Assembly: GCA_016178705.1 (NCBI GenBank)
Contig: JACOST010000030.1
Span: 372,001-436,000 of the forward strand
Direction of reading: 5' to 3'
From: Deltaproteobacteria bacterium
GTDB taxonomy: Bacteria; Desulfobacterota; Binatia; HRBIN30; JACQVA1
Length of the DNA stretch: 64,000 bases
Shown here: piece by piece, positions 55,549 through 57,987 of the stretch
Position numbering within the stretch: the stretch's first letter is position 1
Layout of the letters: each line of letters begins with the position of its first letter
The notes under the pieces: model-generated
Told to the model about the DNA's origin: nothing
What the model saw: only the letters and a program-made list of their open reading frames with translations
The model's database searches: none
Position numbers and translations under genes: made by a program

Positions 55549-55929
55549 TCACACCCGCAGCTTCTTCACGTCGCGCATCGGGTAGTGGCGCAGATTCCGA
55601 CTGCACAGCGTTAGACCGTTTGCGTGCGCCGCCGCGGCGATCAGGGCGTCCGCAATCTCGACGCTGTGCGATCGCCCAAACGTCAGGCAATAGCTGCCGG
55701 CTTTCCGCCCGACGCGCTCGTCGATCTCGACGCAATGCAGGACGCGTTGAATGTCGGCGATGACGAACTCCTCGCGCGGGCGAATGCCGGCGTACACTTC
55801 GGCGATCGAGACCGGCGTCCAGCCGAGAAAATCCCCGGCCGCGTCGCGGGCGGCTAGCCACTCGACGATCGCCTCGGTGCCGCGCAACCACTCAATGATG
55901 ATGTCGCTGTCGAGAAGATACTTGGCCAC
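55549..55929 (-). CDS. vapC: VapC-type PIN-domain toxin ribonuclease
   Basis: 126 residues, GTG start at 55929. PIN domain: AKYLLDSDIIIEWLRGTEAI with the first catalytic Asp, VSIAEVYAGIR with the conserved Glu, and SVEIADALIAAAAHANGLTL with the third and fourth acidic positions. It cleaves specific tRNA or rRNA in characterised systems. The gene overlaps the 3' end of the VapB antitoxin gene by 38 bases, so translation is coupled. Confidence 0.87.
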   Translation of the reverse strand: MAKYLLDSDIIIEWLRGTEAIVEWLAARDAAGDFLGWTPVSIAEVYAGIRPREEFVIADIQRVLHCVEIDERVGRKAGSYCLTFGRSHSVEIADALIAAAAHANGLTLCSRNLRHYPMRDVKKLRV

Positions 55930-56191
55930 GTCGTCTCGCTACCGATCGCTGCGGACGCTCCGAGCGGCGCAAGTTGCGCACGTACGCGTACGAATCGGTC
56001 ATGTCGTCACGCTCCGCCCAGATCCCCGCCATCTGGCGGATCACGGCGGAGCGATCCTCGACGGCTCGTCCTCCGTACGTGGCGGCCACGGCCTCGCGGA
56101 CCAATTCGGAGATCGTTGTCCGACGGCGACGGCTCTCAGCCGCCAGGCGCCGGGCGCTGTCTTCGTCCAAGTACAACTGGGTCCTTTTCAT
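55892..56191 (-). CDS. vapB: VapB-type antitoxin (ribbon-helix-helix)
   Basis: 99 residues from the ATG at 56191. The N-terminal ribbon-helix-helix DNA-binding part is MKRTQLYLDEDSARRLAAES, followed by RRRRTTISELVREAVAATYG. The middle WAERDDMTDSYAYVRNLRRS is the likely toxin-contact strand and the C-terminus is basic and probably unstructured. The longer ORF that starts at 56293 is not conserved. It is upstream of and overlaps vapC. Confidence 0.8.
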   Translation of the reverse strand: MKRTQLYLDEDSARRLAAESRRRRTTISELVREAVAATYGGRAVEDRSAVIRQMAGIWAERDDMTDSYAYVRNLRRSERPQRSVARRRGQVSSRQRHHH

Positions 56192-56291
56192 CGGCGATGT
56201 ATAACATACATCGCCACACGAGCAAAGCATCTTGATCGACTGTCTGGGCGATCGTTCCCCTGCTGCGCGCTTTCGGCTAAGGGTCGAGACC

Positions 56292-56864
56292 ATGAATCAC
56301 GTGACGATCGAAGTCCTCGACCCCACCGCTCCATCACCTCACGGCGCGGCGCAGCCGACGGCCCGGCTTGCATCGCTACGAGGCAAAGTGCTCGGCATTC
56401 GCCGCGACCGGGTGTGGCATTCGTTCCACCACTTCTCCGACCGCATCGCCGAGGTCGCGCGCGAACAATGGGGCGCGCGCGACCTCGTGTTCTTCGATCC
56501 AGGTGTTCGGCTCGGAACCACGGAAGCGGAACGCGACAAATTGTTGCCCTTCGTGCAAGGAGTCGAGGCCGCCATTGTCGGCCTCGGTACTTGAGGGTCG
56601 TGCACGTCGTGGAGTGTCCACGACACGATTGAGTGTGAACGCGCCGGGGTCCCGACGGTGGTGGTAGTGACCGAAGTGTTCGCCAACTTGGCGCAGACCG
56701 CCGCGCGCGCGCGCGGCTACGATCATCTCGCAACGCTGGTGCTACCGCATCCGATGGAGACTCGCGATCGTGACGAATGTCGTCGCATCGCCGACGAGCG
56801 GGCGGCCGAACTCTTCTCCTCGCTGGTGTCCGCTCCCTCTCCCTCTGGGAGAGGGCAGGGGTGA
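56292..56864 (+). CDS. UGSC-family selenoprotein (in-frame UGA read as selenocysteine)
   Basis: One continuous gene of 190 residues with TGA at codon 101 (56592-56594). The TGA stands in VVGLGT-U-GSC-TSW, in the expected place of the selenocysteine in the UGSC motif (known UGSC-family redox proteins have U or C there, with Cys three residues later, Cys104). The frame downstream, TSWSVHDTIECERAGVPTVV and TEVFANLAQ, continues the family sequence without shift. A bulged hairpin directly after the UGA (56598-56628) is a candidate SECIS. The frame ends at 56862-56864 inside a GGGAGAGGG repeat, so the last ~10 residues may be non-native. Without recoding, a ~100-residue fragment and a second fragment would result. 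Probably a thiol/selenol-redox enzyme. Confidence 0.85.
56598..56628 (+). promoter_or_regulatory. Candidate bacterial SECIS element
   Basis: The mRNA 3' of the UGA can fold with a lower stem tcgt/acga (56598-56601 with 56625-56628), a 4-base bulge (56602-56605), an upper stem of 7 bp gtcgtgg/ccacgac (56606-56612 with 56618-56624) and a five-base loop agtgt (56613-56617). The bulged lower stem, 4-base distance from the UGA and G-containing apical loop agree with the general layout of bacterial SECIS elements that recruit SelB. Confidence 0.65.
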
Positions 56865-56868
56865 GGGC
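56835..56868. repeat. GGGAGAGGG dispersed palindrome at the end of the UGSC gene
   Basis: CCCTCTCCC (56835-56843), loop TCT, GGGAGAGGG (56847-56855), then caggggtgagggc. A perfect 9-bp hairpin that encodes the last residues and contains the stop codon of the selenoprotein gene and lies 16 bases before the next gene. Similar units appear at 19962 and 61422. Confidence 0.65.
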
Positions 56869-56883
56869 TCACTAGACACGACC

Positions 56884-57987
56884 ATGCGCGGAACATTGCT
56901 CTCTGAAGTTCACATAGTCGCGGCGGACGCCGAGGCGTTCTTCGAACTCGCGGAGCGTCAGGGCTGGGGCGATGGGCTGCCGCTGATTCCGCCAACGGCG
57001 GAGCGCGTGCAAGCGATGCTCGACTTCGTGGTCGAAGCGCCGGAGGCGATTGTCGGCGTTGTTGAGCCGCAGCGTGGCGAGGCAACGGCCGAAAAAATCG
57101 CGATCAACGCGGTGATGGCTGGGTGCAGCCCCGAGTCCTTTCCGGTCGTGATCGCGGCCGTGCGTGCGGTGTGCGATCCGCGCTTCAATCTCTACGCGCT
57201 CAACACCACCACTTGCTGCGCGACGCCAGCGCTGATGATCAACGGCCCGGCACGCCACGCTCTCGGCATCGAGTGCGGATACAGTTGCCTCGGCCACAAC
57301 GGGCGCGCCAACGCCACCATCGGCCGGGCGCTTCGATTGGTCATGCGCAACGTCGGCGGAGCCATCCCCGGCGCAGTCAGCAAATCCACCTTCGGACAGC
57401 CTGGCCGCATGTCGCTGTGCTTCGGCGAGTGGGAAGAGAAGAGCCCGTGGAACCCGTTCCATGTTCGACGGGGCTTCGAACGTGACGACAACGTCGTCAC
57501 CGTGCACTGCGCTACCGGCACCCAAGACATCGCCGATGTGTGGGCTGAGACCGGCGAGGAAATGATTTGGGTGCTGGCGCACTCGATCGATTGGATCGGC
57601 AACAACAAGGTGCTGGTGCCGCAGAAGGACGGCGAGATGCTGCTCCTCCTCTGTCCCGACTTCGCCTACAAGATCGCGCGCGACGGCTTGGCAATCGCCG
57701 ACGTGCAACGCATGCTATACGAGCAGACGCGCACGCCGATCGAACGCTGGCACCGGAACCACTGGCCGAAGTTGGAAATGCGCGGCTATGTCGAGGACGG
57801 CACCGTGCCGCTGTGTGAGCAGCCGGAGCAATTCCTTATTGCCGTCGCCGGCGGCGAAGGCGGACATCATGCCATCAGCTTTTGCAGCTTCGGTCTGACG
57901 ATGTCGGTGTCGCAGAAATTTTCACTCACCTCAGACATCACCGAGGGCGAGTCGTGTCCGCTGCCGGAGCGAACGCCCGGTATCTGA
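56884..57987 (+). CDS. Unrecognised Cys-containing protein, partner gene of the UGSC selenoprotein
   Basis: 367 residues from the ATG at 56884; an in-frame start at 56770 is inside the UGSC gene. A globular protein with several conserved-looking segments: AERQGWGDGLPLIPPTAERV, EAIVGVVEPQRGEATAEKIA, MAGCSPESFPVVIAAVRAVC, NTTTCCATPALMINGPARHA, ECGYSCLGHNGRANATIGRA. Paired cysteines (TTCC, ECGYSC) suggest metal or redox chemistry. The name and fold are not known to me. The gene follows the UGSC gene by 19 bases and precedes an aminotransferase gene by 2 bases, so the three probably form one operon. Confidence 0.7.
   Translation: MRGTLLSEVHIVAADAEAFFELAERQGWGDGLPLIPPTAERVQAMLDFVVEAPEAIVGVVEPQRGEATAEKIAINAVMAGCSPESFPVVIAAVRAVCDPRFNLYALNTTTCCATPALMINGPARHALGIECGYSCLGHNGRANATIGRALRLVMRNVGGAIPGAVSKSTFGQPGRMSLCFGEWEEKSPWNPFHVRRGFERDDNVVTVHCATGTQDIADVWAETGEEMIWVLAHSIDWIGNNKVLVPQKDGEMLLLLCPDFAYKIARDGLAIADVQRMLYEQTRTPIERWHRNHWPKLEMRGYVEDGTVPLCEQPEQFLIAVAGGEGGHHAISFCSFGLTMSVSQKFSLTSDITEGESCPLPERTPGI

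Follow-up and report, generated by a model that had tools for sequence, protein, structure and literature searches.

The window, by which we mean the whole 64-kb stretch of DNA that was analysed (G000:C30:372001-436000), belongs to a 6.1-Mb, 33-contig genome and carries a short gene with one in-frame TGA, followed on the same strand by a longer gene. The features of this locus are as follows.

56292-56864, + strand: predicted gene for a 190-aa selenoprotein of the UGSC family, residue 101 being Sec; matches PF24696 at 126.8 bits over residues 7-178
56592-56594, + strand: putative Sec codon TGA, first residue of U-G-S-C; TGA stands at this column in 80 of 89 related domains, Cys in 15 of 20 plasmid homologues
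56596-56630, + strand: hairpin resembling a bacterial SECIS, within published constraints and with covariation across the family
56835-56855, + strand: one of 13 exact copies of a repeat that is dispersed through the genome, lying at the 3' end of the UGSC ORF
56884-57987, + strand: partner gene, 367 aa; the ATG start is our choice, the ORF list beginning at a GTG at 56770

The UGSC ORF opens with the ATG at 56292 and closes with a terminal TGA, and when TGA is translated as U its sole internal stop is the TGA at codon 101, which is directly followed by GSCTSWSVHDTIECERAGVPT; the read-through protein holds GLGT-U-GSC-TSWSVHDTIECERAGVPT. This translation bears out the first-pass annotation, which had put the TGA at the first position of U-G-S-C with the frame continuing beyond it. 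Its account of two ORF pieces joined at the TGA stands for the upstream piece, which ends at 56594, and needs correcting for the other, which is listed only from a GTG at 56658 and not from 56595. The protein matches the Pfam UGSC model PF24696 well above its gathering cut-off of 25 bits, over model positions 1-170 of 172, and carries the Sec/Cys-G-S-C motif at the conserved column. With the NCBIfam equivalog NF041046 it scores 86.5 bits over residues 80-172, below the cut-off of 125 bits, and we therefore file it as a divergent member under the Pfam family rather than under the NCBIfam equivalog. What it shares with the family (PF24696, NF041046) is the near whole-length Pfam match, the motif, the Sec/Cys column, a SECIS-like hairpin and a Sec-decoding host. 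The same genome has a second UGSC gene, likewise with one TGA (C32:143170-143673).

The repeat at 56835-56855 is palindromic and occurs at 33 distinct places in the genome with up to two mismatches; the final codons of the UGSC ORF are made up of this copy and the bases that follow it. A scan of 56200-57000 against Rfam gave five matches, all below the gathering score. Divergent from the UGSC gene lie two minus-strand ORFs (55549-55929 and 55892-56293), the first of which we take, from its look, to be VapC-like, the second having a CopG-type ribbon-helix-helix domain (PF01402); the two are likely a toxin-antitoxin pair. Other neighbours in the window are a threonine ammonia-lyase gene (TIGR01127) and an ORF that is presumably aminotransferase-like, again by look, and these neighbours do not point to a substrate.

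Selenocysteine at the UGSC column

The accessible text of the Global Ocean Sampling study shows that a UGSC-containing selenoprotein family has been known since 2008 and was among the most abundant selenoprotein families in those data (PMC2398784). Within the phylum of the present genome, the UGSC model matches 38 of 395 genomes, in 30 genera, with the best eight or fewer candidates per genome scored in most genomes; four genomes reached this limit, with eight scored UGSC places each. One of the 38 (G358) is counted for a match that turns out to be the tail of a GrdB gene (locus L156). From the loci of these genomes, together with locus L023, we collected 89 domains of at least 100 residues, having dropped 6 of 95 rows as shorter than this, both L156 rows among them. 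The Sec column holds U in 80 domains, C in one (L105, from genome G092), S in three, and T, L, G, N and M in one each. Plasmids of named organisms gave 24 records that match the partner protein, of which 21 were fetched (H5, H16 and H17 were left out). Twenty of these 21 loci hold a UGSC domain, with C at the column in 15, U in three (Acidovorax, Paracoccus ferrooxidans and P. versutus) and M in two (Sporomusa and Vibrio); the Haladaptatus locus has the partner without a UGSC domain. The alignment with homologues that had been proposed as a check on the TGA thus finds Sec or Cys in 81 of 89 domains and in 18 of 20 plasmid domains. At six of the Cys-form loci the NCBI annotation reads "UGSC family (seleno)protein". 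An alignment (A2) of 75 domains, which were chosen as Sec or Cys forms and are all Sec except one Cys, shows 90% or higher conservation of the second Cys of UxxC.

Annotation hides such genes. On the P. ferrooxidans plasmid pFER4 (L197) the annotation splits the U-containing UGSC stretch into two "hypothetical protein" CDS, just as the first-pass annotation had expected of a standard pipeline, and selB lies on the same plasmid about 3.3 kb from the partner gene.

The column lacks both Sec and Cys in 8 of the 89 domains and, on plasmids, in 2 of 20. Seven of the eight are fused to the partner, and the Gly form has its partner 817 bases away. Three UGSC-partner fusions (L200, L202 and L155) have Met within DMGTS or GDMGTS, and two of these, from Sporomusa (L200) and Vibrio (L202), stand near aconitase X and DUF126. 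Fused genes with Ser, Asn and Leu at the column occur in many-copy genomes (L117, L150 and L151), and in L151 two fused genes that lack Sec and Cys stand side by side.

Substitution rates suggest that the sequence beyond the TGA is coding and conserved. After the TGA, dN/dS is 0.28 against L023, 0.19 against L098 and 0.23 against L105, the last comparison having synonymous sites near saturation (pS 0.72); before it, the values are 0.40, 0.29 and 0.78. The codon at the column is TGA in L023 and L098, which share 65% and 59% protein identity with the window's UGSC protein, and TGC in L105. Since the TGA is also present in two other genomes, a base error is very unlikely.

Downstream of the TGA, the first-pass annotation had placed a hairpin at 56598-56628. 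The hairpin is real, and its limits were set slightly off: the element spans 56596-56630, with a lower helix of 56596-56601 with 56625-56630, an upper stem of 8 bp (56606-56613 with 56617-56624) and an apical loop at 56614-56616, closed as A-GUG-U. The bacterial SECIS model, as set out in the available portion of a 2026 review, has a loop of 3-9 nt, a stem of 4-16 bp, G in the first two loop positions, a distance of 16-37 nt from the UGA and an MFE of at most -7.5 (PMC13188914). The suggested comparison with this model comes out in favour of the hairpin, which has a loop of 3, a stem of 8, G in first place, a distance of 19 nt and an MFE of -16.2 kcal/mol.

A reader who takes the TGA for a genuine stop codon, a lesion in a pseudogene or a miscalled base may point out that this energy is ordinary (z -0.83; 40 of 200 shuffled sequences equal or better it) and that the same SECIS criteria are passed by 246 of the 1832 TGA triplets on both strands of the window (13%), so that the hairpin alone would prove little. 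What makes it convincing is covariation across the family. In 42-nt stretches, 53 of 80 Sec sites and one of nine non-Sec sites pass the criteria, and with a stricter G[GU] loop the figures are 41 of 80 Sec sites versus 75 of 1832 window TGAs; the 27 Sec sites that fail may use other structures. In an alignment (A3) of 79 distinct sites of the 80, the upper stem has 69.0% standard pairs compared with 24.5-47.2% in slid controls, and the covariation score is 0.364; slid structures score 0.203 or less and shuffles 0.200 on average, none of 500 shuffles reaching 0.364. At one pair of the stem, 31 rows have GC and 27 have CG. Two further measures in A3, changes on both sides and further pair types, were not above shuffles. 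Ranked by energy against other stretches of the same gene, the hairpin has a median rank of 0.09 and exceeds 0.5 in 10 of 80 cases.

The genome also encodes the means to read such a codon. All four genes that the first-pass annotation had proposed to search for (selA, selB, selC for tRNA-Sec, and selD) are found above their cut-offs, which together constitute the bacterial selenoprotein criterion of SelA, SelB, SelD and tRNA-Sec. The tRNA-Sec scores 74.7 bits, and ARAGORN reports a tRNA-SeC gene with anticodon tca; selB (389 bits) and selA (597 bits) are neighbours on the contig that holds the window, ~26 kb past the window's right edge; and selD (L020, G000:C14:751984-752913) scores 407 bits. 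The selD gene has its own in-frame TGA, with U in GAGUACK, and SelD is thus itself a selenoprotein candidate. We rely on scores above cut-off because matches below it turned up in 14 of 14 control genomes for tRNA-Sec, selD and one of selA/selB, and in 4 of 14 for the other.

With TGA in 80 of 89 domains, low dN/dS past the TGA, a covarying hairpin and complete Sec machinery, a stop or an error at codon 101 is scarcely credible; a pseudogene, a base error or two separate proteins are rejected on TGA conservation, covariation and dN/dS. The UGSC gene is almost certainly intact, its TGA being decoded as Sec by SelB and tRNA-Sec with the in-frame hairpin, as far as comparative evidence can tell. 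The Sec use that the first-pass annotation had put forward as a conjecture gains support from homologues, machinery, covariation and low dN/dS alike, and we infer that the protein would actually contain selenium.

A partner gene beside the UGSC domain

The first-pass annotation can be extended by a linked gene, 56884-57987, and by a relationship to GrdB that is taken up below. The ATG of the partner gene lies 19 bases after the UGSC stop, a spacing from which co-transcription is inferred. The partner is found in 24 of 198 genomes; 22 of these are also UGSC genomes, and the other two matches are weak (E 3.9e-7 and 8.7e-4). It stands within 2.5 kb on the same strand for 84 of the 89 UGSC domains: 53 are fused to it in frame with UGSC first, 12 are separate with UGSC first, and 19 are separate with the partner first. 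The window's UGSC gene is not fused to its partner; the same separate arrangement is seen for 31 of the 84 domains with a partner. Five domains have no partner in that range, one of them at a contig end, and the second-closest homologue, L023, has none within about 5 kb. In the plasmid loci the partner adjoins UGSC in 20 of 21. The domains are not independent events, the matching genomes falling in 30 genera. Adjacency and fusion are strong evidence for one functional unit, and on this basis it is strongly supported that the product of the second gene would work with the UGSC protein.

The partner family itself has little resemblance to described families. When 78 members were compared with Pfam and NCBIfam (alignment A1, which takes 78 of 84 partner domains >700 bases, from 88 partner domains in all), there were scattered weak matches, each in at most three members, the best at E 0.0073 and 0.0083, and PDB sequences gave no match. 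A search of viral contigs with the partner alignment confirmed 0 of 30 candidate stretches, and a single-sequence AlphaFold model (pLDDT 32.9) gave no usable fold. Section 9 of the Global Ocean Sampling study, in its accessible text, describes UGSC fused to a conserved domain, "Unknown_1", to which it assigns no function beyond a possible redox role (PMC2398784). Like the partner family, "Unknown_1" is a conserved, uncharacterised domain fused to UGSC proteins, and judging from that description the two are likely the same. We note that the Cys-form locus of genome G092 has an extra gene of 388 aa between UGSC and partner (L105:6533-7699), with no Pfam or NCBIfam match.

Likeness to GrdB and gene neighbourhoods

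Comparison of the UGSC profile with that of GrdB, read through its Sec, gives an hhalign probability of 96.4% over 74 columns, with Sec aligned on Sec (E 1.2e-9, for one comparison). From this profile match we conclude homology between the Sec segments of UGSC and GrdB. Single-sequence matches are much fainter: the window protein reaches 21.1 of the 602.2 bits of the NCBIfam GrdB model (E 1.2e-4) and does not match PF07355 (GrdB) at E up to 0.1. The UGSC profile has a weak match to GrdE (26.4%, E 7e-4, 15 sequences), and GrdE versus GrdB gives 6.7%. UGSC thus shares with GrdB (PF07355; glycine, betaine and sarcosine reductase) the Sec-bearing segment, and some of its relatives have thioredoxin-reductase genes nearby, but the window's UGSC protein has 190 aa where the GrdB sequences compared have about 430-460 aa, its partner is unrelated, and PF09338, the GrdE/PrdA-type subunit, has no match in the genome. 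The partner was also considered as a GrdE/PrdA or GrdB piece and rejected, with profile probabilities of at most 0.25%, and of 0.1% against the 15 GrdE sequences.

D-proline reductase, PrdB/PrdA, pairs a small Sec subunit that bears UxxC with a pyruvoyl partner. We liken the UGSC pair to it by layout, a small Sec subunit with a larger partner, and not by PrdB/PrdA sequences; it differs in that the UGSC partner has no PF09338 match in the profile comparison.

A second way to read a UxxC protein is as a general thiol or selenol redox protector, that is, a peroxidase or disulfide reductase, and the "likely Trx-like fold" stated in the accessible text of the 2008 study favours it along with the motif (PMC2398784). 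We think this improbable. The profile match is to GrdB, the window protein has no thioredoxin family among its Pfam and NCBIfam matches at E up to 0.1, four genomes have at least eight UGSC places each, the neighbours look catabolic and the partner is almost always present. A two-sequence model of UGSC (pLDDT 58.8) has alternating helices and strands, and Foldseek, with E limited to 0.001, gave no match; its best VIA match (Z 7.5, rmsd 3.5 over 119 residues) is within the common range, with no GrdB or thioredoxin among the matches listed. A sequence search of solved structures gave no convincing match.

Genes resembling thioredoxin reductase (TrxR) were sought with tblastn. They turned up in 11 of 21 plasmid loci and, among the 75 other loci, in four (L095, L110, L126 and L156), L156 being the glycine-reductase (grd) locus; none was found in the 64-kb window. 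The distance from the TrxR-like gene to the nearest UGSC or partner domain is 92, 538 and 1239 bases in L095, L110 and L126. In Arthrobacter, trxB and trxA lie directly upstream of the partner, and in Roseovarius trxB lies directly downstream of UGSC; these two copies score above the TIGR01292 cut-off, and those of Haloterrigena and Variovorax boronicumulans below it. In 20 related genomes there are zero to three TrxR matches >100 bits per genome, which puts 11 of 21 plasmid loci well above rough expectation. We attach no probability to this linkage because the plasmid loci come from other taxa than the 20 genomes and include related organisms (three Neorhizobium, several haloarchaea).

A Pfam scan of 20 chosen representatives of 538 neighbour proteins gave several families that handle organic acids: TctA, TctC, DctM, CaiB-type CoA-transferase, AMP-dependent ligase, MmgE/PrpD and a FAS1/MaoC-type dehydratase. 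Transporter and CoA-transferase genes also lie beside the UGSC homologues of named organisms. DUF6282, nitronate monooxygenase and luciferase-like monooxygenase families occur near relatives too, and DUF4352, glycyl-radical, cupin and SDR families are likewise among the neighbours. No third gene common to most UGSC loci was found.

A possible role for the pair

Taken together, these findings suggest to us that the locus encodes a two-gene selenocysteine unit that acts reductively on organic acids, a reading to which we give a probability of roughly 0.55. The more specific proposal, that the pair, coupled to thioredoxin, acts reductively on a small organic acid or on the corresponding CoA ester, falls a little short of even odds. 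The redox-active group would be the selenol of U101, paired with C104, following an enzyme logic like that of glycine or proline reductase; the selenol would be kept reduced by NADPH and thioredoxin reductase, the partner would bind the substrate, and UGSC would act reductively on the acid or ester. Several observations count against this explanation: the window lacks a TrxR-like gene, few non-plasmid loci have one, there is no third shared gene, the partner is unrelated to GrdE and GrdB, PF09338 is absent, L023 is partnerless and the partner has no modelled fold.

The domains with neither Sec nor Cys imply that some members cannot use the redox chemistry of U101, and they are the main evidence for another view, in which an organic acid undergoes a non-redox reaction (elimination, hydrolysis or isomerisation) with the selenol serving as nucleophile or acid-base group, the partner does the main chemistry and thioredoxin has no task but to keep the selenol reduced. 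The Ser, Thr, Asn, Leu and Met-type domains have kept their fusion, seven of eight in all, with the partner of the Gly form close by, and the aconitase X and DUF126 genes near the Sporomusa and Vibrio Met forms fit such a reaction. We nonetheless regard it as unlikely, since 81 of 89 domains retain Sec or Cys, alignment A2 shows the second Cys of UxxC conserved and TrxR is linked to the plasmid loci.

The family was already known and has Pfam and NCBIfam models; the links to GrdB, thioredoxin reductase and organic acids are our synthesis. These links do not appear in the accessible text of PMC2398784, PMC13188914 and PMC9312934, and the literature searched held no experimental study of UGSC function. 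In its available portion, the 2026 review describes the functions of selenoprotein families found by bioinformatics as largely uncharacterised (PMC13188914). The near-constant partner, the GrdB relationship and the TrxR and organic-acid neighbours amount to a testable functional hypothesis. More tentatively still, and with the odds somewhat against it, UGSC and partner may form a second, widespread class of selenium-dependent reductase parallel to glycine and proline reductase. If this were true, the GrdB-type Sec loop would have been cut down to a small subunit and paired or fused with a new substrate-binding protein that replaces the pyruvoyl subunit, thioredoxin reductase would feed the enzyme, copies would have multiplied in some genomes for different organic acids, Cys would have replaced Sec in haloarchaea, actinobacteria and rhizobia, and the Met branch would have turned non-redox.

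Apart from the UGSC genes, the genome has a 162-codon stop-free frame that matches the C-terminal part of PF07355 (G000:C2:43457-43876), and a similar short PF07355-like form is present in many genomes of the phylum.
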